From Gemmatimonadota bacterium (GTDB taxonomy: Bacteria > JAAXHH01), in the NCBI GenBank assembly GCA_009838645.1, contig VXRC01000002.1, forward strand, positions 1 to 62,396: a stretch of DNA of 62,396 nucleotides, given 5' to 3'. Below, piece by piece: positions 5,913 to 62,396 of this stretch. The notes beneath the pieces were generated by a model. It was not told the DNA's origin. It was given only the letters and a program-made list of their open reading frames with translations, and ran no database searches. The translations under genes and the position numbers were made by a program. Each line of letters begins with the position of its first letter. The first letter of the stretch is position 1.

Positions 5913-5952
5913 GCGCCGCTACTCAACGCCGTGCGCCGCTACTCAACGCCGT
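5913..5952. repeat. 20-bp perfect tandem duplication at the end of a gene
   Basis: Two adjacent identical 20-base units (GCGCCGCTACTCAACGCCGT) occupy 5913-5932 and 5933-5952. The second copy contains the TAG stop of the minus-strand membrane gene, and the first lies just beyond it, giving a duplicate stop. It looks like a recent slippage duplication in the short gap between two convergent genes. Confidence 0.9.
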
Positions 5953-8437
5953 GCGGTGCCCCCCTTACCGCCGCGCACGCCGCGACGACATAGCAGGCCG
6001 CCGCCGCCGTTACCGTGAGCACGAATCCCCACTGCATGGCGAGGATCATGGCCAACGGCGAGGCCAGGACGGAAGCGCAGCCGTTAACGCCCCAGGCCCA
6101 GGGAACCAGCGCGGCGGACCGCGCCCCGAACCATCGCAGCCCCAGCGGGAAGGGCAGTCCCATGGCGAAGGCCAGGGGTGCGATGAGGACGAGCACCGCG
6201 GCGAGACGGATTCCCAACGGCCAGGCCCCTCCGAACAGCGCGAGGAGGATCAGGCCCGTGAACACGGGTATGGCCAGGACCGCCGGCATCATGGCCAGCC
6301 TGCCCAGTGAAACGCCGGGCAACTTGGCGATGCGATCCGCCGCCAGGCTTCCCAGGCCCGAGCAAAGCAGAAAGCCTCCCACGGTGGCCGCGCCGCCGAG
6401 CACGGGATCGCCCAGCAGGCGCTGGATGCCCGACAGAAAGGCGATTTCCAGCACCAGGTAGGCCAGCCCGATGGAAAGAAAGTACACCGCGGCGATCGAC
6501 CGTCCGGACGCCTTTCGGATGTCGGAGCGGAAAACGAAGGGCAGCAGTATCAGTACCAGTCCCGCGCACGTAACGATGACGGCGGTGGACAGAACGAATA
6601 TAAAAGCCAGTTCCGACCGCAGCAGCCACCCCGCTCCGTAGGTCCGCCGGAAATCGGGCAGGGCGCCAAGCTTTCCGAAATTGCCGAAGAAGGGGCGGTC
6701 GTCGGTGGCCGGCCGGACTTCGAAGGGCCATTCGTCGAAGAACCGGGCGGTTTCATTTCGGTCCCCGGACAACAGGCTACGCATCACGTGGTACAGGTAG
6801 TCCCCGTCTTGCCCCGGTGGTCCGGGGAGTTCGTCGGGACGGTTCAGTTCGCCGGCCGTTATCCCCTCGAAGTACACCGGGGTCAGGTTCCGCTCCGCGG
6901 CCAGGTCCCGCAGCCGGCGAATCTCCCCGACCCGCCAGGGTCTTGGCCGGACCATGGTGCAGACGCCCAGGAAATCCCGGACCATGGCGATGTGCGCGCC
7001 GGGGCGAGCGATCCCCGACTGTTCGAGAGCGGCAATGACCGTCGCCGCGATCTTCGCGTTGTCCCGGGGCGGCAGCTGTATCCCGCGGGACAGGTGGAGG
7101 ATGCCGTTGGGTGACAACCGCCGCAGGGCGGCCGCCATACCCTCCACTGTCATGAGATGATCCTGGTTCAGCCCTTCCAGGCCGCCCGCGGCCGCCGACC
7201 AGGATTCCATGCCCGCCAGCTGGATGAGATCGAAGGAACCCCGCGTCCCTTCGAGGAAGGCCCGGGATTCCACCGGATGGAGCGCGACGCCCGGCAGGCC
7301 GAACACCATGCCGCCTTCGTCCTCCAGGGGACCGGCCAGGAGGTCCGACAGCACCCGGTTAGGCTGCACGACGTCTACCGCGGCGGCGCCGTGCCGCCGG
7401 GCCAGCCAGATGTTGCCACCGCCGACCTCGTCCAGCAGCAGTACCCTGGAATTGGAAGGGACCAGTCCATAGGGCAGGGCCATGAGCGTGCCGTCCAGCG
7501 CCGCCGCCTGATCCGGCCGGTCGATGCGCAACAGGGAGCCGGCGCGGTGACCGTCCACGACGATCGACGCCATGGACGGCGGCACGCGCTCGTCGGTCAT
7601 GAAGGCCATGTCGTGGAAGGCATCGCTGCCGAACGCCTCCACGACCCCCGACGGACCGACGGCACGGGCCAGTTGCTCGGCCTGCCCGTCCGCCTCAAGG
7701 CGTTCCACATAGGCCAGGTACTTGTCGTCGTCTACGCGGATGGAAGGGGGATAAAACAACGCCAGCAACGCGCCGGCCAGCACGGCCAGCACGGCCAGCA
7801 CGGCCAGCACACTCGCGGAAACCGGTCCGGCGCTCCACGCCCGCCGGTCGCCGCGGTATGCCGCGGCCAGGACCACGGCCCCGGTCATGTAGCCCAGCCA
7901 TGCGGGTTCCACGAAGTACAGGCCGATGGTCACGCCGACCGCGCCGGACGCGCTGCCGATGAGGTTCGACGCGTAGACCGACGAAAGCCGTTCACCGGCG
8001 GACATCAGTGCCAGTCCGATGGCGGTGGCGCCCAGGGCGAAGGGGACGGTCAGCAGGGCCCAAAATACTGCCCACCAGGCCAACTGCCCGACGACCAGGC
8101 CGGGCAGGAAACGGCCGGTCACGGGCAGAAGCTGCGCGGCCTGGAGCATGAGGGGAATGGAGACGGCCGTGAGCAGGGCCAGTACCGGAAGGGCCGTATG
8201 CCGGTGCCGCAGGAGGTAACCGCGCCACAGCGACAGGATGGCGCCGCTCATGCCGAAGCCGAGGAGCGCGATGGTGATGACGAGGAAGGCGAAATGGTAC
8301 CAGCTCGCGTACTGCAGGACGCGTATGAGCCCGATTTCGAAGGCGATGACGCCGCAGGAAACCAGGCCGGCGGCCCGTACGAGATAACCTGCCGGAAAAT
8401 CCTCGGGCGTATCGGTGGTTTCGGTTCGCGACGTCAC
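5939..8437 (-). CDS. Multi-pass membrane protein with central spermidine-synthase-like domain
   Basis: Predicted 832-aa protein. The N-terminal third has many hydrophobic helices (for example CGVIAFEIGLIRVLQ and LLGFGMSGAILSLW). A soluble Rossmann-like middle part follows (VLLLDEVGGGNIWLARRHGA, later FDLIQLAGMES), and a second set of helices lies in the last third (SIGLAYLVLEIAFLSGIQRL). This arrangement matches fused membrane and spermidine-synthase-like proteins of unknown substrate. The start is GTG 8437, whose GTGA overlaps the TGA of the upstream pcm-like gene by 4 bases, indicating translational coupling; a longer in-frame extension would only re-read pcm. The acceptor-binding residues of true spermidine synthases are not evident, so aminopropyl transfer is not claimed. 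Confidence 0.78.
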   Translation of the reverse strand: MTSRTETTDTPEDFPAGYLVRAAGLVSCGVIAFEIGLIRVLQYASWYHFAFLVITIALLGFGMSGAILSLWRGYLLRHRHTALPVLALLTAVSIPLMLQAAQLLPVTGRFLPGLVVGQLAWWAVFWALLTVPFALGATAIGLALMSAGERLSSVYASNLIGSASGAVGVTIGLYFVEPAWLGYMTGAVVLAAAYRGDRRAWSAGPVSASVLAVLAVLAVLAGALLALFYPPSIRVDDDKYLAYVERLEADGQAEQLARAVGPSGVVEAFGSDAFHDMAFMTDERVPPSMASIVVDGHRAGSLLRIDRPDQAAALDGTLMALPYGLVPSNSRVLLLDEVGGGNIWLARRHGAAAVDVVQPNRVLSDLLAGPLEDEGGMVFGLPGVALHPVESRAFLEGTRGSFDLIQLAGMESWSAAAGGLEGLNQDHLMTVEGMAAALRRLSPNGILHLSRGIQLPPRDNAKIAATVIAALEQSGIARPGAHIAMVRDFLGVCTMVRPRPWRVGEIRRLRDLAAERNLTPVYFEGITAGELNRPDELPGPPGQDGDYLYHVMRSLLSGDRNETARFFDEWPFEVRPATDDRPFFGNFGKLGALPDFRRTYGAGWLLRSELAFIFVLSTAVIVTCAGLVLILLPFVFRSDIRKASGRSIAAVYFLSIGLAYLVLEIAFLSGIQRLLGDPVLGGAATVGGFLLCSGLGSLAADRIAKLPGVSLGRLAMMPAVLAIPVFTGLILLALFGGAWPLGIRLAAVLVLIAPLAFAMGLPFPLGLRWFGARSAALVPWAWGVNGCASVLASPLAMILAMQWGFVLTVTAAAACYVVAACAAVRGAPHGVE

Positions 8438-9288
8438 TGTTCGACCCGGCCGGTCATGGGCACGAAGCGAACGGGCATCACGGTGCGGGAGGTGCGCTCT
8501 CCTTCCGCCGTCTTGCGGACGACGACGAGCCGCTGCACACCCGTCATCTCGCCGATGGGGATGACGATCCGGCCGCCGGGCTTGAGCTGGGACCACAGGA
8601 GCGGCGGCAGATGCCCGGCCGCGCAGGTGACGATGATGGCGTCGTAGGGCCCCGCCTCCGGCCACCCGTAATAACCGTCTCCGTGGCGTGTCTGAACGGC
8701 GTCATACCCCTCCTCGGCGAGCAGTCCTCGGGCCCGGTCCAGCAACGGTTCGATGATCTCCATGGTATACACGTGGGGCGTAATGTGAGCGAGCACGGCG
8801 GCCTGGTAGCCCGATCCGGTGCCGATCTCCAGTACCTTTGAAGCCGGACCGATCTCGAGTAACTCGGTCATGTACGCCACGATGTAGGGCTGGGAGATGG
8901 TCTGCCCGAGGCCGATGGGCAAGGGCGTATCGTCGTAGGCGATGCGCCGTGTCTGCTCGTGGACGAACACGTGGCGAGGGGCGTCCATCATGGCCCGGAT
9001 TACGGCCTCGTCCGTGACCATGGGTGACTTGTCCAGGATCACCTCGACCATGCGTTCCCGCTCCCGCTGCCGCTCATGGACGGAGCGGGGCTGCGGCGGC
9101 GTCCAGGCCGTGTCGGCGGCGGCCAAGGTGGAGGCGGCCGCGGTGTTGGAGGTGGCGGCGACCTGTACGTCTCCGCGGCGGCCATCGGGATCCGCGGTCG
9201 ACGCCGAGGACTCCGGCTCAGCCGCACACGCCAATAGCATGTATCCGCAAAGCAGCGCTGAAGTCAATAGACTGATTGCACCTGGCAT
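8434..9288 (-). CDS. pcm: Protein-L-isoaspartate O-methyltransferase, predicted lipoprotein
   Basis: Predicted 284 aa. The catalytic part is clear: LGQTISQPYIVAYM (127-140) and the AdoMet loop VLEIGTGSGYQ (152-162), followed by the GDGYYGWP region, all typical of Pcm, which methylates isoaspartyl residues as a step in protein repair. Unusually, ATG 9288 gives a signal sequence with a lipobox, LLAC (Cys21), and an Ala/Ser-rich linker before the enzyme. GGAGG lies directly upstream; a longer start at 9339 would overlap the preceding gene's end. Export is inferred from the lipobox. AdoMet is not expected outside the cytoplasm, so the location is puzzling. Confidence 0.88.
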   Translation of the reverse strand: MPGAISLLTSALLCGYMLLACAAEPESSASTADPDGRRGDVQVAATSNTAAASTLAAADTAWTPPQPRSVHERQRERERMVEVILDKSPMVTDEAVIRAMMDAPRHVFVHEQTRRIAYDDTPLPIGLGQTISQPYIVAYMTELLEIGPASKVLEIGTGSGYQAAVLAHITPHVYTMEIIEPLLDRARGLLAEEGYDAVQTRHGDGYYGWPEAGPYDAIIVTCAAGHLPPLLWSQLKPGGRIVIPIGEMTGVQRLVVVRKTAEGERTSRTVMPVRFVPMTGRVEQ

Positions 9289-9304
9289 ATGCCTCCGTCC
9301 CCGT

Positions 9305-10429
9305 TCAGATATCGGAATAGGACAGGTCGTCCGGATCACGGCGCATGTTGCGGAGCGGCCAGGAGTCGGCCGTGTTGGCCGCGAGGCCTTCCTCCGAGAT
9401 CTCTATGCCGAGTCCGGGCCCCTGCGGCAGCTCGACGAAACCGTCCTTGAACACCAGGGGCTGGGTGAAGAGCGTGTCGCCGCCGCCACCGCCGTATTCC
9501 TGGATCAGGAAATTGGGCGTGCCGGCCATGGCCTGCAGGGACGCGGCCACGCCCACCGGATCGGCGGCGGAGTGGGGCGCCATGGCCACGTAATGAACTT
9601 CGGCCAGGGCCGCGATCTTCTTCATCTCCAGGATCCCTCCGCAGTGGCGCACGTCGGGCTGGAGAATCGCGGCGACCTTCTTCTCCACCAGTTCCCGGAA
9701 CCCCCATCGGGTCGTGTTCCGCTCGCCGGTGGCGATGGGGATGGTGGTGGAGCGGGTGATCTCGAGCAGGGCGTCGACGTTCTCCGGATGGGCGGGTTCC
9801 TCCACGAACATCGGTTTGAGGGGTTCCAGTTCCTTCAGCAGGCGTCTGGCCATGGCCGGACTCACCGCCCGGTGGAAATCCACGGCCACGTCGACCTCCG
9901 GTCCCACGGCTTCGCGGATCGCGGCGACGCGGGCGATGATGCGCTCCATGGCCGCCGGCGTATCCACGAAACGCACCGGATCGGGAAAGGGGGTGCACTT
10001 GAGCGCGGTGTACCCTTCCGCCACCCGTGCCCGGGCATGTCTCGCGTATTCGTCCGGCGACGGGCCGCCGACGGACGCGTAGACCCGGACGCGATCCCGG
10101 CAGGAACCGCCCAGCAGCCGCCATACCGGCATGTCCAGCGACTTGCCGAGGATATCGAGACAGGCGTGCTCGATGCCGCTCAGCGCGGAGAGCAGGATGG
10201 GCATCTGGCGGCTGTAGCTCGAACGGAAGAGTGTCTGCCAGTGGTCCTCGATCTGCCGGGGGTCGCGGCCGCGGAGGTAGTCTTCCATGTCATGGACGGC
10301 CCGGGTAACCGTCCGGCCGTGCTCGTAGTTCATGGGCGACCCGTAGCCCACGAGTTCCGAATCGGTATGCACCTTGAGCAGCAGGCCGCGCTGCTTCAGG
10401 GGGATGACCTCGAACCGCGTGATCTTCAT
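9305..10429 (-). CDS. Enolase-superfamily sugar-acid dehydratase (mandelate racemase/muconate lactonizing family)
   Basis: Predicted 374-aa enzyme of the MR/MLE group, closest in layout to galactonate/gluconate-type dehydratases. Visible active-site blocks are ALKCTPFPDP (catalytic Lys region), VDVAVDFHRA (metal Asp and a His), FVEEPAHPEN (metal Glu), IATGERNTTRWGF (metal Glu) and VAMAPHSAADP (C-terminal catalytic His). It would abstract the proton alpha to a carboxylate and eliminate water from a sugar acid. Its first 136 codons and 31 bp of leader are present twice in tandem, so this intact copy has only half of the operator found at 10889-10907. The pcm-like gene follows after 16 bp. Confidence 0.87.
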   Translation of the reverse strand: MKITRFEVIPLKQRGLLLKVHTDSELVGYGSPMNYEHGRTVTRAVHDMEDYLRGRDPRQIEDHWQTLFRSSYSRQMPILLSALSGIEHACLDILGKSLDMPVWRLLGGSCRDRVRVYASVGGPSPDEYARHARARVAEGYTALKCTPFPDPVRFVDTPAAMERIIARVAAIREAVGPEVDVAVDFHRAVSPAMARRLLKELEPLKPMFVEEPAHPENVDALLEITRSTTIPIATGERNTTRWGFRELVEKKVAAILQPDVRHCGGILEMKKIAALAEVHYVAMAPHSAADPVGVAASLQAMAGTPNFLIQEYGGGGGDTLFTQPLVFKDGFVELPQGPGLGIEISEEGLAANTADSWPLRNMRRDPDDLSYSDI

Positions 10430-10899
10430 GGGTACTGCCCACTCCCGTCGTATCTACTTTCACCCGTGCCCGGGCATGTCTCGCGTATTCGTCCGGCGAC
10501 GGGCCGCCGACGGACGCGTAGACCCGGACGCGATCCCGGCAGGAACCGCCCAGCAGCCGCCATACCGGCATGTCCAGCGACTTGCCGAGGATATCGAGAC
10601 AGGCGTGCTCGATGCCGCTCAGCGCGGAGAGCAGGATGGGCATCTGGCGGCTGTAGCTCGAACGGAAGAGTGTCTGCCAGTGGTCCTCGATCTGCCGGGG
10701 GTCGCGGCCGCGGAGGTAGTCTTCCATGTCATGGACGGCCCGGGTAACCGTCCGGCCGTGCTCGTAGTTCATGGGCGACCCGTAGCCCACGAGTTCCGAA
10801 TCGGTATGCACCTTGAGCAGCAGGCCGCGCTGCTTCAGGGGGATGACCTCGAACCGCGTGATCTTCATGGGTACTGCCCACTCCCGTCGTATCTACTTT
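10022..10899. repeat. Perfect 439-bp tandem duplication
   Basis: Bases 10022-10460 and 10461-10899 appear identical on reading. Each unit carries the first 136 codons of the enolase-superfamily gene plus 31 bp upstream of its ATG, in minus orientation. The right junction cuts inside the 19-bp operator motif: the outer copy has the full site, the inner copy keeps only GTATCTACTTT and then runs into CACCCG. The unit length is not a multiple of three, so the outer reading frame cannot run in frame into the inner gene. The identity implies a very recent event or an assembly artefact. Confidence 0.92.
10461..10868 (-). pseudogene. Duplicated 5' fragment of the enolase-superfamily dehydratase gene
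   Basis: This is the outer copy of the tandem duplication. It starts at ATG 10868 and encodes the N-terminal 136 residues of the dehydratase (the capping domain and the first part of the barrel, through YASVGGPSPDEYARHARARV). It then leaves the homology and reads out of frame through the leader and start of the intact copy, stopping at 10290. It lacks every metal-binding residue and cannot be active. It keeps the native promoter/operator region, so transcription of the intact copy and of pcm downstream probably has to pass through it. Confidence 0.85.
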
Positions 10900-10907
10900 G
10901 TATACAC
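10889..10907 (-). promoter_or_regulatory. Putative operator, site 2 of the shared 19-bp motif
   Basis: Read on the minus strand the site is GTGTATACAAAGTAGATAC, ending 20 bp before the ATG at 10868. It matches the site at 18453-18471 at 17 of 19 positions and the site at 707-725 at 16 of 19. A position this close to the start codon suits repression. The copy belonging to the intact dehydratase gene was cut in half by the duplication. Confidence 0.55.
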
Positions 10908-10956
10908 GCCAATGGAACACGCCGGCGGAACACGCCGCCGGAAACCCGCTGTCGCC

Positions 10957-11679
10957 TTATCCTGTCGCCACCGGCCGCCTGTAGAACCGGTGGGGATTCG
11001 TCCGGGGTTCGTAGCCGAGGATGCGCCGGGCCTTGTGGATGGTGTACTTGCCTTGCTGCAGGTAGCTGCCCATGTTGAAGGCCTGGAAGAAGTCCGGCAC
11101 CTCCTCGATCTCCAGGGCCAGCCGGCAGGCTTCCACCAGGTCGTCGTAGACGATGGTGAAAGGCGGATGGTCGGCGTTACTGACCGGCTCTTCGGGCATC
11201 GGGCCCAGTCCGTTGAACTGGTAGCACACGGTGTGTATCCGGTACTTGCGGGCGTAGATTTTGCAGATCTCCATGGCCAGGTGCTTAGTCAGCATATAGT
11301 AAGCTGTTCCCGGTGCCTGCGGCACGTCGCCGATGTCGTGGTCGTGGAGATAGCCGGGGATGATGATCTCCGGACCCGTGTGCAGGATCTTCTCGATACC
11401 GAGTTCCGCCGCCGCCTTCATCACGTGCCAGGCGCCCCGGACGGACACGGCGAAACTCGCCACCGGATCCTGCCGGACCACGGTCCAGTTCATGATCGCG
11501 TCCATGCCGCGGGCGGCTTCCAGCACCTGCCCGTATTCGCCCATGTCCACGTGCATGATGGGCTTGCCGCCGGGATGGGGACGGATATCGGCCAGCAGCA
11601 GGTTGTAATGTTGTTCCAGGCCGGGGATGATGAACGGCGCGATATTGCCGGAGGCGCCCAGGAGGAGGACGTTTTTCAT
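10957..11679 (-). CDS. NAD-dependent epimerase/dehydratase (extended SDR family)
   Basis: Predicted 240-aa Rossmann protein. The nucleotide-binding motif GASGNIAPF begins at residue 8 and the SDR catalytic pair is seen in YYMLTKH (YxxxK), followed by VCYQFNGLGP. It would oxidise, epimerise or dehydrate a nucleotide sugar or another polyol. It is short for an extended SDR but complete. I chose ATG 11679 because AAGGAG lies about 7 bp upstream; a longer open frame up to 12372 is only a shadow of the preceding aminotransferase gene. The gap to that gene is 17 bp, so one operon is likely. Confidence 0.83.
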   Translation of the reverse strand: MKNVLLLGASGNIAPFIIPGLEQHYNLLLADIRPHPGGKPIMHVDMGEYGQVLEAARGMDAIMNWTVVRQDPVASFAVSVRGAWHVMKAAAELGIEKILHTGPEIIIPGYLHDHDIGDVPQAPGTAYYMLTKHLAMEICKIYARKYRIHTVCYQFNGLGPMPEEPVSNADHPPFTIVYDDLVEACRLALEIEEVPDFFQAFNMGSYLQQGKYTIHKARRILGYEPRTNPHRFYRRPVATG

Positions 11680-18452: not shown

Positions 18453-18471
18453 GTGTATACAAATTGGATAC
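18453..18471 (+). promoter_or_regulatory. Putative operator, site 3 of the shared 19-bp motif
   Basis: GTGTATACAAATTGGATAC, followed by A. It is the most symmetric of the three sites: TGTATACAA-A-TTGGATACA pairs at 8 of 9 positions per arm. It lies about 200 bp from both divergent start codons and about 80 bp upstream of the predicted -35 element of the outer-membrane gene, so it may serve either direction. Confidence 0.55.
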
Positions 18472-47164: not shown

Positions 47165-50100
47165 ATGTATCGAACCGCTAAACTCGGATTCCCGGTTATC
47201 CTTTGCCTGGTGGCCGTATCTCTTTTCACCTGTGGGAAAGACAATCCCACCAGTTCCTCACGGCAGGAAGCAACCGCACCGAAGGCCGCGGCAAGGCCAC
47301 AGACCACGGCAGCCGGTCCGCAGACCACGGCAGCCGGTCCGCAGGCCACGGCTACCGGTCCGCAGGGCACGGTCACCGGTCCGCAGGGCACGGTCGCCGG
47401 CCAGGCAGGGCAGGCCACCGAGCAGGCCACCTCACCGGATTACGTGATCGAATCGGTGGAAGTCAGCGAATCGAGCCTGAGCGCCGGACAGCGTTTCTCC
47501 ATGACCGCAACGGTCAAGAACCAGGGCGTGGACTACCCCGGTTTTGATCTGGCAACGCTGCGGTTCTACCGTTCTTCCGACGCCACGATCTCCACCGCTG
47601 ACACGGAACTCGGTGATCGGCCCATCCTCCCGCTCGACGCGAACGAGACCCGGGAGTGGTCCCTGCCCGTCCTCTATGCGCCGTCGGCGGCCGGTACCTA
47701 TTACTTCGGGGCCTGTGTCGACCCCCTGCCGGAAGAAGCCGACCGGCAGAACAACTGCTCGGTCGCGGTGGCGGTGAGCGTCGGCGGACCCGATCTGGTC
47801 GTCGATTCCCTCGCGGTGAGCGAATCGAGTCCGAGTGCGGGCCAACGCTTCTCCATGACCGCCAGGGTGCGGAACCAGGGCGCCGGCGCCACGATCGACC
47901 TGACGACGCTGCGCTTCTACCAGTCCGCCGACGCGACGATCTCCACCGCCGATACGGAACTCGACACCCGGCCGATCCTGACCCTCGACCCGGGCGGGAC
48001 CCGGGAGTGGTCCCTGCCCGCCCTGTACGCGCCGTCAACGGCCGGCACCTATTACTACGGCGCCTGCGTCGATCCGCTGGCGGAAGAAACCGACCAGCAG
48101 AACAACTGCTCGGCAGCACTGAAGCTGACCGTCGGAGGACCCGACCTGGTCGTCGATTCCCTCGCGGTGAGCGAGACGAGTCTGAGCGCCGGGCAGCGCT
48201 TCTCCATGAGCGCGACGGTCAAGAACCAGGGCGGCGGCGGATCCATATCCTTGACGACCGTGCGCTTCTTCCTGTCCACAGACGCGACGATCTCCACCGC
48301 CGACACGGAGCTCGATACCCGGCCCATACTGCCCCTCGACCCGGCCGAGACCCGGGAATGGTCCCTGCCCCTGCTCTATGCGCCGTCCACCGCCGGCACC
48401 TACTACTACGGCGCCTGCGTCGATCCCCTGCCTGAGGAAACCGACCAGCAGAACAACTGCTCGGACGCGGTGACCATATCCCTGAGAACGGCGGACCTCA
48501 TCGTCGAGCGGCCTACGGTCAGCGACGTCAGCTCCACCGCGGGCGGCAGGTTCTCCCTGGGCGCCACGGTGCGCAACCAGGGCGGCGGCGACGCCGTCGC
48601 GTGGACGACGCTTCGGTTCTACCAGTCCGGCGACGCCGCGATCTCGACCGCCGATACGGAGGTCGGCACATGGGCCATATCTCCCCTGGAGGCGTCCGGA
48701 TCGCAGGAAAGGACGCTCAGGTTCCTCGAACTGCCCTCGGACGGCGGCACCTATTACTACGGGGCCTGTGTGGATCCCCTGCCCGGCGAGGCCGACACGG
48801 GGAACAACTGTTCGGGCGGGGTGACCATTACCGTCAGCAGCCCCGACCTGGTCGTCGATACCCCGACCGTCAGCGAGCGCAACCCGGCGCCCGGCGAGCA
48901 ATTCGACCTCAGCGCCACGGTGCGCAACCAGGGCGGCGGCGACGCGGCCAATTCGACCACGCTCCGCTACTACCGCTCGAGCGACGCCGCGATCTCAGCC
49001 AACGATACCGAAGTCGGGACCGACTTCGTAAGCAGGCTGGACGCGGCGGCAACCGCCGAGGAGTCGATCTCGCTGACGGCGCCCGATGCGGCGGGAACCT
49101 ACTATTACGGGGCATGCGTGGACGCGCTGGCCAACGAGACGGGCACGGGGAACAACTGTTCCATGGGCGTCGCGGTGACCGTGGGACAGACCGCCAACCA
49201 GCCCCCGGTAGCCCGGGGCATGATCCCTGACCAGGAAGTGGACGGCGGCGAGTCGGTCACGGTGGACGTGTCCTCGTATTTCACGGATCCCGACGGCGAT
49301 GCGCTGACCTACCAGGCCCTGACGTCTGACGCCGCAGTCGCGACCGCTTTCATTCCGGGCAGCGTGGTGACGATCCGGGGCGTGTCGGCCGGCAGCGCGA
49401 CGATCACCGTCACGGCCAGCGATGGCAGCCTGACCGCCGGGCAATCGATTCACGTCACCGTGCGGCGTTCCATCGTCCCGCTTGCCGATCTCATCGTGGA
49501 ATCGCCGTCGGTCAGCGACGGTAGTCCCGAACCGGACGAGCGGTTCACGTTCCGCGCGACGGTTCGCAACCGGGGCGACGGCGACGCCTCGTCCTCGACC
49601 ACGCTGCGGTACTACCACTCCGGGGACGCCACGATCTCGGCCGCGGACACGGAAGTCGGCACGGACAGCGTGCGCTCCCTGGACTCTTCCGAGACCAGCG
49701 ACGAATCGATCGCGTTGAACGCGCCTTCAGACGCGGGCACGTACTACTACGGCGCCTGCGTGGACGCGGTGTCCGACGAATCCGACAGTCAGAACAACTG
49801 TTCCGTCGCCGTGACGGTGACGGTGGGCCAGCCCGTCAACCAGGCGCCCGTCGCACAGGGCACGATTCCGGCACAGAACGTGGAGGTGGACGAATCGGTC
49901 CGAATCACCGTGTCCTCTTATTTCAGCGATCCTGACGGCGACCGGTTGACGTTCTCGGCCGCCACGTCCGACGCGGCGGTCGCCACGGCGGCCACTTCGG
50001 GCAGCGTGGTGACGGTGGAAGGCAAGTCGGCGGGCAACGCGACCATCACCGTTACGGCGGACGACGGCAGCCTGACCGCGAGGCAGACGATCCGCGTGAC

Positions 50101-54935: not shown

Positions 54936-57900
54936 TCAGAAGCTCATCCTTCCGATCAGGCCGATGCGGTGGTCGGGCGTCCGGCCGTAACCCTCTATGC
55001 GCTCACCGGCGAGTTCGAAACTCAATGCGCCGACCCCGCCAGCCGTGCCGCCCACGGCACCGGCGCCAGTGGATCCGAACCGCGTGCCCAAGCGTATGCG
55101 GCGGCGGTCGTCACCGGCCAAGTCCATTGCGCCGAAGGGTGTCATCAGGATATCGCTCGATGCGAAACGCGCGAGACCATAGCCGACTTCGGCCTTCACG
55201 CCGACGCCCTCGCGGGACGGCCGCGTGAGGCCCTCCATCTGCTCATCGCGCCACATATCGCCGGACATATCGGTTGCGGCGCCGATCCGGGGAACGACCG
55301 TCATCGAGAATCCCCGCCTGCCGGCGGCCATCGGATTTACGTAGGCGGCCAGCGAAATGCCGCGCTCCTTGACGCCTTCGCCCGAGTGCGAGGCCAGCAG
55401 GCGGCCGCGCGTTTCGACGCCGATCCTGCCGCGGGCGATTTTGAGTCCGCCGGCGACCTCGATGCCGCCGCCGGTCTGGCCGTCGCCGCCGTCATACCGG
55501 CCCGTCACCTGGACTAAGGGCGATACGCGCATGCCATTGTCCATTTCGATGGTTCCCGAACCTTCGAAACCGACACGAACGCGATGTACGCCGGCCTTCA
55601 GGTCGCTTAAGGACGCGTGTTCGCTGTCGGCGGCCGTCAGGTTGGCAATGCCCGCGTCACCGATTACGCCCAGGTCCAGCCCTTCGATGCCCGATCCGAC
55701 CAGTTGGGCGCGTACGCCGAACTGGTACATGCGCATGGACAGATCGTTGGTCATTTCGTTCGACTCGACTTTACCCGAACCGAAACCGCCGATACCCCAG
55801 ACCTCGACGATGTAACTGGGAACCTGCCACAGCACATAGGGATACACGCCGTTCAAGGTGGTTTCCAGCTTGCCGTCCGCGACCGATCCGGTGTAATCCG
55901 AACTACCCATGGTACGGCCAAAGGCCACGCCGCCCGTCCAGCTGCCGGCCTTCGACACATCCATACCGAAGTAACCGGAAATCAGCGATCCGTCGTAGGT
56001 GGCGGTCTGGGCGGCCGCACCCTCAAAGGCGTTCCAGTCTCCGGCCCCCCAGACCGTGTAGCTCAGGCCGTCCCTGCCGCTCCCAACCTGCGGCGCATCA
56101 TCCAGCGCGTAGTAGAAGGACGTGCCCCGCATCAACTCTCGGGCCGAGACGGGATGTGCGCCGGCCAGAGTTTCGCCGGCAGCACCGTACTTTCTCGTCT
56201 CCTGTGTACCGGTCAGTCCGACCACGGCTTCCAGACCGGCCGCCATGCCGTCGACCCGCCGGTTACCCAAAGCAAGCTGGCGTTCGGAACCGGACACCGC
56301 GAACCGGCCGCCGATCGTGCTGGACACGCTCGACAGGATTCCCCGGCCCATGGCCGCCAGGATGTCGGTGTAGATCATCCGTTCTTCGGTGACCGTCGTT
56401 ACCGTCACGCCGAAGTCGAAACTGACCGAACCGGCGTCGTTGGTCGCGAGCACCGTTACGCGGGCCGAACCCCTGTGATCGGCCGTGACCGTCAGCGTCG
56501 ATCCCGACACTTCGGCCGATACCGCTTCGTCCGAGGAAGAGGCCGAAAAGGCCAGGCCCTTGCCGGAGAAACTGCCGGCCACGTCGGCCTGCCTGGAATC
56601 GCCCGCTTCCAGGGTCATGTCCGTAATCGCACTCGTTACCGCGGGCGCCGGGAAGTTGTCGACGATGGTGAGCGTGACGTGGTCTATCTCGCTTCCCTGC
56701 CAGTTCGCGGATACGACGATCGTCTCGTCGTTCGGTTCGTAGACCGCGTCGTCCACGACGGAGAAGTCCAGCTGCGCAGCCGCTGAACTCTGACCGGCGG
56801 CGATAACGATTTCCGCGTTTCCATTCACCTGGTAATCCGTACCCCGGGTGGCCGTGCCGGCCAGGTCCAGCGTAATGGCCGTCGGAACAGAAAGCGCGGC
56901 GCCGGACAACGCGACGGTGAACGACACCGACTGCGTACCGCCGTCTTCACGCAGCGTATCCTGGTCGACGTTCAGGCTGAACGCCGCCGTGACGGACACG
57001 CCGAAGTTGTAGCTGACCGAACCGGCGGCGTTGGTCGCGGCGACCGTCACGCGGCCCGAACCCAGGTAGTTGCCGGTGACCACCAGCGAGGCGCCCGTCA
57101 ATTCAACCGAAATCGCGCCACCCGAGGCCTGGGCCGAAAAGGTCAGGTCCTTGCCCGAGAAGGTTTCGGAGAGGTCGGTGCGAAAGGCGCCGCCCGCAAT
57201 CAGGCTCACCTCCGGAATCGGGTTGGCCACCGCCGGCGCCGGAAAGTTGTCTATGATCGTCAGCGTGACGTGGCCGAGATCCTGGTGCTGCCATCTCGCC
57301 GTCACCACAATGGTCTCGTTGCCCGGCTCGTGAACTTCGTCGTCCTCGACCTGGAAGGTGAGCTGCGTGCCCGCCGTCGTCCCGCCGGCGGGAATGGCGA
57401 TTTCCGCGGTTCCGCCCCAAGTGTAGTCTATTTCCTGGGCGGCCGTGCCGGTCATCACCAGCGTGATCACGGTGGGAACCGGAACCGGGCTGCCGGTCAT
57501 CGTGACGTCGAACGTTACCGTCTGGGCGCCGCCGTCTTCGCGCAACGAGGTCGGAACTGCGCTCAGGATCATGTTCGGTGTGTCGTTGTCGACGATGGTG
57601 ATTACGACCGGCTCACTGATCGTTCCCAATAGATTGCCAGCGAAGACGGCGAATTCGTCGGATTCGTAAGCGTCGTCATCCACCGGAACGACCGTCAGGT
57701 TGATACTCCCCGTCGTCTGGCCCGCGGGGATCGTAATCACGATGTTCGGGTCAGCCGCCAACTCCAGCACGGCGAGGTCCGCCCCCGGTCCGATCAGGGT
57801 AGCGGTACTTTGATCCAGCAGCGGTACCAGGCCCACGTGAAGGTCCTGCGAGCTGATCTCGGATGTAGTTGCCGTAACGACGCCCACCTGCGGACCACCG

Positions 57901-59492
57901 CCTTCATCGAGCATGTCCGGCGTCGCGCTCAACGTGATGACCGGCGCCGGTTCGTTGTCGGTGATCTCCACCGTCAAGGGCATGGTCAGTGACTCGCCCA
58001 TGGCCCCCACGCCCACTATGACGAACGTCTCCGTACCTTCGTAGATACCGTCATCCGTTGGAACGACGGTAACCTCCAGAACCCCTTCCGTCTCACCCGG
58101 AGCGATCACGATCGGCTGATCCAGCGGCGTTGCGACGAGATCATCCGGAAACGTTGCCGTACTTTGATCAAACACAGGCGCCAGCGCGATAACGGTCGGC
58201 ACGGTGCTTGCGACCGTCGCCGTCGCCGTTACCGTGACCACCTGCGGTCCGCCGCCTTCATCGACCATGGCCGGCGCCGCGCTCAGCGTGAAAGTCGGTA
58301 CCGGTTCGTTGTCGATAATCTCCACCGTCAAGGGCGTGGTCAAGGGATCTCCCGTGACCCCCAACCCCACGACCACCAGCGTCTCCGTACCCTCGTAGAC
58401 ATTGTCATCCGCAGGTATGACAGTTACCTCCAGGACGCCTTCCGTCTCACCCGCGGCAATGATGATCGGCCGATCCAGCGGGGACGCAACGAGATCATCC
58501 GGAAACGCGGCCGTGCTTTGATCGAACACGGGCGCCAGTACGATAACGGTCGGCAAGGTGCTCGCGACCGTCGCCGTCGCCTTTACCGTAACCGCCTGCG
58601 GACCGCCGCCTTCATCGACCGTGTCCGGCGTCGCGCTCAGCGTGAAGGCCGGCATCGACTCGTTGTCGTTGATCGCCACCGATATAGGCATGGTCAGCGG
58701 CGCGCCCATGGCCCCCACACCCACGATGACGAACGTCTCCGTGCCTTCGTAGATGTTGTCATCCGTGGGTACGACGGTCACCTCCAGGACCCCTTCGGTC
58801 TCACCAGCTGCGATGACGATCGGTTGATCCAGCGGCGTGGCGACGAGATCATCCGGAACGGTGGCCGTGCTTTGGTCGAACACGGGCGCCAGGGCAATGA
58901 CGGTCGGCACGCTGCTCGCGACCGTCGCCGTCGCCCTGACCGTAACCACCTGCGGGCCGCCGCCTTCATCGATCATGTCCGGCGTTGCGCTCAGCGAGAA
59001 GGTCGGCATCGGCTCATCGTCATTGATCGCCATCGACACGGGCATGGTCAAAGGATCGCCCGAGGAGATCTCCACGCCCACGACCACCAGCGTCTCCGTA
59101 CCCTCGTAGATCATGTCATCCACGGGAACGACGGTTACCTCCAGCACACCTTCGGTCTGGTCCGGTGCGATGACGATCGGCTGATCCAGCGGCGTGGCGG
59201 CCAGATCACCCGGAATCGTGGCCGTGCTTTGATCAGACACAGGACGCAACGCGATGTTAATGGGCAAGGTGCGCACGATGCTCGTGTCCCGCACCGTCGC
59301 CCTTACCGTTACCACCTGCGGCCCTCCGTCTTCATCCACGGACACGGGATCAATGGTCAGGTTTACCAATGTCTGCGCTGCAGCATCCTCGTTGGTCATC
59401 AGAACGGCAACCGGGACGATCGCCAGTGCGAACGCCAGGATCTTGACGCACCAGACACGCGTGGGATTCCTGAACCTGGAAGCGTAGCGCAT
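54936..59492 (-). CDS. Calx-beta repeat autotransporter-like surface protein
   Basis: Predicted 1518 aa. After a signal peptide (VKILAFALAIVPVAVLM) come seven Calx-beta-type repeats of about 118 residues (each starting near FTLSATPDMVDEGGGPQ with YEGTETFVIVGVG). Two dystroglycan-like modules (FSGKDLTFSAQAS; FSGKGLAFSASSS) are placed between and after the last repeats. The last ~430 residues look like an autotransporter barrel ending IGLIGRMSF, with terminal Phe. The start is ATG 59492 with AGGAGA upstream. It should be displayed on the cell surface as a calcium-binding adhesin. The middle four repeats are very similar to each other, about 354 bp apart in DNA. Confidence 0.84.
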   Translation of the reverse strand: MRYASRFRNPTRVWCVKILAFALAIVPVAVLMTNEDAAAQTLVNLTIDPVSVDEDGGPQVVTVRATVRDTSIVRTLPINIALRPVSDQSTATIPGDLAATPLDQPIVIAPDQTEGVLEVTVVPVDDMIYEGTETLVVVGVEISSGDPLTMPVSMAINDDEPMPTFSLSATPDMIDEGGGPQVVTVRATATVASSVPTVIALAPVFDQSTATVPDDLVATPLDQPIVIAAGETEGVLEVTVVPTDDNIYEGTETFVIVGVGAMGAPLTMPISVAINDNESMPAFTLSATPDTVDEGGGPQAVTVKATATVASTLPTVIVLAPVFDQSTAAFPDDLVASPLDRPIIIAAGETEGVLEVTVIPADDNVYEGTETLVVVGLGVTGDPLTTPLTVEIIDNEPVPTFTLSAAPAMVDEGGGPQVVTVTATATVASTVPTVIALAPVFDQSTATFPDDLVATPLDQPIVIAPGETEGVLEVTVVPTDDGIYEGTETFVIVGVGAMGESLTMPLTVEITDNEPAPVITLSATPDMLDEGGGPQVGVVTATTSEISSQDLHVGLVPLLDQSTATLIGPGADLAVLELAADPNIVITIPAGQTTGSINLTVVPVDDDAYESDEFAVFAGNLLGTISEPVVITIVDNDTPNMILSAVPTSLREDGGAQTVTFDVTMTGSPVPVPTVITLVMTGTAAQEIDYTWGGTAEIAIPAGGTTAGTQLTFQVEDDEVHEPGNETIVVTARWQHQDLGHVTLTIIDNFPAPAVANPIPEVSLIAGGAFRTDLSETFSGKDLTFSAQASGGAISVELTGASLVVTGNYLGSGRVTVAATNAAGSVSYNFGVSVTAAFSLNVDQDTLREDGGTQSVSFTVALSGAALSVPTAITLDLAGTATRGTDYQVNGNAEIVIAAGQSSAAAQLDFSVVDDAVYEPNDETIVVSANWQGSEIDHVTLTIVDNFPAPAVTSAITDMTLEAGDSRQADVAGSFSGKGLAFSASSSDEAVSAEVSGSTLTVTADHRGSARVTVLATNDAGSVSFDFGVTVTTVTEERMIYTDILAAMGRGILSSVSSTIGGRFAVSGSERQLALGNRRVDGMAAGLEAVVGLTGTQETRKYGAAGETLAGAHPVSARELMRGTSFYYALDDAPQVGSGRDGLSYTVWGAGDWNAFEGAAAQTATYDGSLISGYFGMDVSKAGSWTGGVAFGRTMGSSDYTGSVADGKLETTLNGVYPYVLWQVPSYIVEVWGIGGFGSGKVESNEMTNDLSMRMYQFGVRAQLVGSGIEGLDLGVIGDAGIANLTAADSEHASLSDLKAGVHRVRVGFEGSGTIEMDNGMRVSPLVQVTGRYDGGDGQTGGGIEVAGGLKIARGRIGVETRGRLLASHSGEGVKERGISLAAYVNPMAAGRRGFSMTVVPRIGAATDMSGDMWRDEQMEGLTRPSREGVGVKAEVGYGLARFASSDILMTPFGAMDLAGDDRRRIRLGTRFGSTGAGAVGGTAGGVGALSFELAGERIEGYGRTPDHRIGLIGRMSF

Positions 59493-61178: not shown

Positions 61179-62396
61179 TTACGACGACGCCGCTCTTGTA
61201 ACGGTAACCTCGACATAGATAGCACCATAACCCTCGGCACTTACCTTGATAACAGATTTACCAACCCCGCCGGTTACACCGGTGGACGTAGCGTCAGCAG
61301 GAAAACCGATAGACACTTGAGCGGTACCGTTACCACCCGAAGTCGCTGTAGTCGCTTCGGCCGTTGCAATTCGAACGGAACTGCCGCTGACAACTTCAAA
61401 CATGACGTCAACACCATCGGCGGCAGCCGCCCAGGCCCTCATACCGGTATCTGCATCGACAGCGCCGGTTCTTCTCTGTAACGTTGCTGCAACGACAGCG
61501 GCAGCGTCAACAGCACTGCTATCGGCATTGATCTCGACATTGAGGGGTAGGTTTGGTATTACCGATTCGGCAATGATAATCCGAGATGCAGGACCCTGGA
61601 TAACGTCGAACACCGTGACTTCATACTCGGCCGCATCAGCATCGTGTCCCACGGCCGTGACCGATATCGTGGCTTCGCCATCACCCTTCGCGGTCACCGT
61701 AGCCATAGCGCTGTTGTCATCATCGGCCTCAACCGTTGCCACGCTAGGATCAGAGGTATCCCACTCAAACTCAATGCCGGGAATTTCAACCCCTGAATCG
61801 GCATCGGACTCATCAAGGGCCGTAGCCGTCAATGCAACGGTACCGCCGACCTGAAGTGTACTGGAGGAACCATCAGCAGCGTCGGTCACTGTGATAGTAT
61901 CGACTGCTTTGTACACTGTGATGGGAATCTCGATGTCTATGCCGCGACCATCGACGGACAACGTTAACATCGTTGATCCGTTCGACACACCCGTCACCGT
62001 TCCGTTTGCCTCTACGTCGGCGAAGGCGGCATCCTCAATACCCCACGTGAAGGATGCGAGAACCGGACTTCCGTCCTGTGATCCGGCCTTGGCAAGAAGG
62101 TGGGTCGACTCGTCTACAAGCAAGACGATGGTCGTCAACATATCATCAAATCCAGGAGCGTTGACCCTGCGTGCATCATCAGCATCTTCACCATCCTGGA
62201 TGATCAGGACATGATGAATGTCGGCCAGAACACCGGCGCCAATTGCTTCGTTAATGAGGTCGCTGACATCGGCGTCTTCGCCAGGCTCGCCTTGGATACC
62301 CTGCTCGCCTTGGATACCCTGCTCGCCTTGGATACCCTGCTCGCCCTGCTCGCCTTGGATACCCTGCTCGCCCTGCTCGCCTTGGATACCCTGCTC
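61179..62396 (-). CDS. Collagen-like and Big_2-type Ig surface protein, N-terminus outside the window
   Basis: An open frame of 405 codons on the minus strand continues past the right edge. The visible N-terminal part is a Gly-X-Y run (EQGIQGEQG-type), ending [18 protein letters not shown], comparable to [19 protein letters not shown] in the neighbouring protease gene. Next come Big_2/BID-like modules ([37 protein letters not shown]) and a predicted beta-sandwich end. A methionine at 62141 begins only the downstream part and is not needed as a start. The base composition is lower in G/C than in most other genes. Confidence 0.7.
62288..62396 (-). repeat. 18-bp collagen-encoding tandem repeats
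   Basis: Repeats of an 18-base unit (TTGGATACCCTGCTCGCC on the plus strand), mixed with a 9-base unit (CTGCTCGCC), run to the edge of the window. They encode GEQGIQ or GEQ steps. The repeat reaching the edge suggests that the assembly broke here. Confidence 0.8.

Follow-up and report, generated by a model that had tools for sequence, protein, structure and literature searches.

Spontaneous tandem duplications formed without homologous sequences have been reported in bacteria, in the available part of one study, as a route to promoter capture (PMC11111574). A study of spontaneous rearrangements, in the portion accessible, applied three criteria to separate true events from ligation chimeras, one of them being long microhomology at the junction (PMC3411829). 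Small exact tandem duplications in metagenome assemblies readily invite a regulatory interpretation that goes too far. We describe such a repeat, with a unit of 439 bp, in a Gemmatimonadota genome (GCA_009838645.1) from an uncultured, Latescibacterota-like bacterium, on a stretch of 62,396 nucleotides of contig VXRC01000002.1 that we refer to as the window. The duplication is ordinary in kind, and the reading that we favour, with moderate confidence, is that it is real, minor and very recent and arose without homology at a fluid locus.

On the minus strand the locus comprises, in this order, an epimerase-like gene, an 88-nt spacer that carries a 17-bp motif, a dehydratase fragment, the intact dehydratase gene, a pcm-like ORF and a long ORF. 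The upstream gene (10957-11679) encodes an NAD-dependent epimerase-like protein. The intact dehydratase (9305-10429, 374 aa) contains the MR_MLE_N and MR_MLE_C domains and scores 384.3 bits against the galactonate dehydratase family NCBIfam NF010624, for which the curated cut-off is 311; it is a putative galactonate dehydratase, or at least galactonate-dehydratase-like. The pcm-like ORF downstream (8434-9339) belongs to the protein-L-isoaspartate O-methyltransferase family, and the long ORF behind it (5939-8665), described as a membrane gene in the earlier note, has no Pfam match. The fragment ORF (10290-10868) starts at the ATG at 10868 and follows the dehydratase frame for 136 codons, up to the junction 10461/10460; beyond it come 56 out-of-frame residues before a stop codon at 10290, which lies within the intact gene. 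The ATG of the intact gene at 10429 sits within the fragment ORF in a different frame. The fragment scores 148.1 bits against NF010624, and Pfam detects MR_MLE_N alone, with no match to the MR_MLE_C domain of the intact protein.

The repeat consists of two direct copies that abut at 100% identity with 0 mismatches, as expected for a recent bacterial tandem duplication: copy 1 (10022-10460, minus strand) holds the leader and the first 136 codons of the intact gene, and copy 2 (10461-10899, minus strand) holds the leader and the 136-codon 5' fragment. The exact repeat and the ORF anatomy thus bear out the earlier note, in which two identical units were said to put a partial gene ahead of a complete one; its end coordinate of 10907 took in the remainder of the 17-bp motif. 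One breakpoint lies within that motif and the other 408 bp into the dehydratase gene. The repeat is maximal at both ends, since the bases flanking the copies differ before and after them, and the join therefore has 0 bp of microhomology, a feature that is common in tandem duplications and not required for them; when breakpoint pairs are placed at random in the same region, 52% of them likewise give 0 bp. Perfect identity had been taken to mean a very recent event or an assembly product, which holds. The closest unit in another genome, that of G009, differs at 21 of 437 positions, so the absence of differences between the copies places the duplication within less than about one-seventh of that split, by our Poisson estimate at 95%, which assumes no gene conversion.

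The complete 17-bp motif, GTATACAAAGTAGATAC, occupies 10889-10905 on the minus strand and ends 20 nt before the ATG of the fragment. The end of the repeat at 10899 falls inside it, and consequently only 11 of its 17 positions, the right half, are kept before the intact gene (10450-10466, minus strand), where coding sequence stands in place of the left half. A junction within a regulatory motif that leaves the intact gene with half of it had been claimed; the location and the partition (17/17 before the fragment, 11/17 before the intact gene) are confirmed, and the regulatory nature of the motif can be called probable only. The distance from motif to dehydratase ATG is 20 nt in all five genomes measured (the own genome G000, G003, G008, G009, and G011), despite differing intervening sequence and even though G008 and G011 retain no more of the gene than roughly its first eight codons; part of this constancy could be due to shared descent. 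Searches of both strands in 12 genomes of the genus returned 109 matches to the pattern GTATACAANGTAGATAC with at most two mismatches, against 6 for the reversed control, and 101 sites for the symmetric form with at most one mismatch, against 16 control sites; these patterns were derived from the window and orthologous sites were counted in every genome, so the numbers measure recurrence and not independent events. Several of the symmetric-form sites in the own genome lie inside ORFs, so not all of them are intergenic. The motif is thus recurrent, partly palindromic and, at the dehydratase locus where distances were measured, constantly spaced from the start, as an operator would be, which makes it a credible candidate control element that is probably regulatory. 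GTATAC-type palindromes are bound by regulators of the GntR family.

Related sequences occur elsewhere. In the window the partly palindromic motif is also found at 18455-18471 and 709-725, and the motif-like form at 18455 has counterparts in G001, G002, G006, and G009 about 7.6-7.7 kb from the dehydratase. Just upstream of the complete motif lies a short array of 13-nt units (10914-10943, minus strand); by eye, there are three tandem units of 13-15 nt in G000, four in G009 and four in G011, and some of them look like a half site.

The comparison within the genus covered 12 genomes (G000-G011), the own genome included. A dehydratase orthologue is encoded in six of them, and the five others share 93-96% identity with the own one; none of these five has the 439-bp duplication. 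The junction, searched with up to three mismatches, was found in 1 of the 12 genomes, the own one, six of the 12 carrying the gene. Between the epimerase gene and pcm, the motif and the dehydratase are both present in G000, G003, and G009; the dehydratase only in G001, G002, and G006; the motif and about the first eight codons in G008 and G011; and neither in G004, G007, and G010. The pcm gene follows the epimerase gene, with no dehydratase, in G004, G007, G008, G010, and G011. The locus was not found in G005, which was left out because a distant pcm paralogue was all that was found there. In the epimerase-gene tree of 11 genus genomes and an outgroup, five of nine support values are below 0.6, and losses of the motif or of the gene were therefore not counted. 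Judged from the sequences compared, the locus is fluid across the genus, and the distribution suggests an old motif whose spacing is maintained even in genomes that have lost the gene that follows, whereas the duplication was found in a single assembly.

Some of the altered loci retain traces of the gene. In L304 (G008) and in L306 and L289 (G011), the dehydratase is lost and the leader, the motif and about eight codons are left, fused to pcm; the residual codons of G011 share the reading frame of pcm. Short stretches before pcm in L305 (G010) and L307 (G004) correspond to the 3' end of the dehydratase gene that was lost, and in G010 this remnant seems, by eye, to be doubled in tandem. A separate proposal, that the spacer upstream of the gene is a mobile or repeated element, was rejected for lack of support across 15 genomes including the own one: in this set (without G009, G010, and G011), the clear matches were the own site, its truncated copy and the G003 locus, and the remaining ones, including one at this locus in G008, were weak matches of little length (E 0.01 to 1). 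The named same-genus records among the matches (L026, L027, L028, and L039) are MAGs that carry the label Candidatus Latescibacterota or Gemmatimonadetes; MAGs of this kind derive from sponges.

The duplication has also been read as a change in the control of the dehydratase, pcm and the membrane gene. As a selected regulatory change, it would alter the expression of the three genes by moving the operator away from the intact gene. The probable control function of the motif (109 matches against 6 in the 12 genomes) and its 20-nt spacing in all five genomes measured are consistent with such an effect; however, the full motif still lies upstream on the same strand, 439 bp farther away, and the join between dehydratase and pcm is unaltered. 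Control of the operon need not be disturbed, since the upstream genes and the putative control site, which is complete, all keep their place upstream. A simple scan of 9200-11200 gave no terminator-like site (shuffled sequences give 0.6 by chance; Rho-dependent ends fall outside the scan) and no sigma-70-like promoter (shuffles give 0.5; other promoter types fall outside it). Moreover, three relatives (G001, G002, and G006) have no motif at the locus, and their dehydratase and epimerase genes overlap by 4 nt, which suggests that upstream transcription can serve the dehydratase. A same-strand ORF ends at -4 to 15 nt from the dehydratase in 13 of 15 relatives, the exceptions being G003 and G009 (in the latter the epimerase stop lies at 101 nt, counted on the printed sequence), although beyond the genus this upstream ORF is a different gene; together with the motif-less relatives, this spacing indicates that dependence on a motif directly before the dehydratase is not general. 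Altered control of the operon is weakly supported, and selection for it, with the junction found in one genome only, appears highly improbable. Also highly improbable is the reading that the duplicated unit acts as a reversible switch in a lineage that is losing the gene, in which the out-of-frame overlapping fragment would damp dehydratase translation and recombination would restore a single unit.

A more substantial alternative, which we hold to be possible but the less likely account, is an assembly artefact, in which the 439-bp sequence was joined end to start, either in the library (a chimeric or self-ligated molecule) or by a cycle in the graph, and the unit was walked twice. Identical 55-mers at contig tips and gap flanks are what SPAdes-type assembly with k = 55 leaves. 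Among the 94 of 100 contig tips (600 nt each) that were read, 14 tip pairs share at least 25 nt exactly, of which four share exactly 55 (three at both tips), ten share 25-54 and none shares more than 55, and four of the five N gaps in 1.24 Mb are flanked on both sides by an identical 55-mer. The assembly thus shows signs of a SPAdes-like k = 55 graph, the value of k being shorter than the repeat. Two 439-bp copies form one path in such a graph, so that direct evidence comes solely from k-mers that span the join; and as the unit is far longer than k, its copy number was inferred by the assembler. The 0 bp of microhomology, equally found in about half of the random pairs, makes the join look no different from a chimeric ligation, and the microhomology criterion, as given in the part of that study available, speaks mildly against its reality (PMC3411829). 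Against an artefact, the 439-bp repeat is isolated in the 1.24 Mb of the same assembly: in 1,242,093 of the 3,814,757 bases of the own genome, about a third, it is the longest exact direct repeat (of those of at least 50 nt), the next being 154 bp, which lies in a repetitive stretch with a gap, and no further duplication of that length was seen in 1.24 Mb of 3.81 Mb. In addition, an N gap was left at four other places between repeated 55-mers and none at the 439-bp join. Other repeats of the window are a terminal 18/27-bp tandem array (62278-62396) that continues into an N gap of the contig, and arrays of diverged 351-354-bp units at 47465-48941 and 57884-59255, perhaps repeated protein domains.

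Under the favoured reading of a real duplication, an illegitimate event in the sampled population would have produced the fragment and the intact gene, and the repeat would be present in cells. Expression of the intact gene would still depend on the same upstream signals, with a leader longer by 439 nt, ribosomes translating the fragment would cross the start of the intact gene and perhaps change its expression level, and recombination between the copies would later remove the duplication. If real, the repeat shows a dispensable gene caught mid-rearrangement; if not, it is a caution about copy number in k = 55 assemblies.

The locus can be set against three described systems. It shares with the spontaneous tandem duplications, as presented in the available part of that report, the head-to-tail direct copies, the homology-free join and a gene fragment at the join; it differs from them in its size of only 439 bp and in that the join cuts the motif and places no gene under a new promoter (PMC11111574). 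With the repeat and cycle artefacts of short-read metagenomes, in the portion of that source accessible, it has in common exact copies whose length exceeds k, the assembly bearing the k = 55 signature, but it lacks an N gap at the join and is without a parallel in the third of the assembly that was covered (PMC9104695). Relative to the NF010624 D-galactonate dehydratases of the enolase superfamily, the intact gene likewise lies above the curated cut-off, whereas the fragment represents the N-terminal domain only and falls below it.
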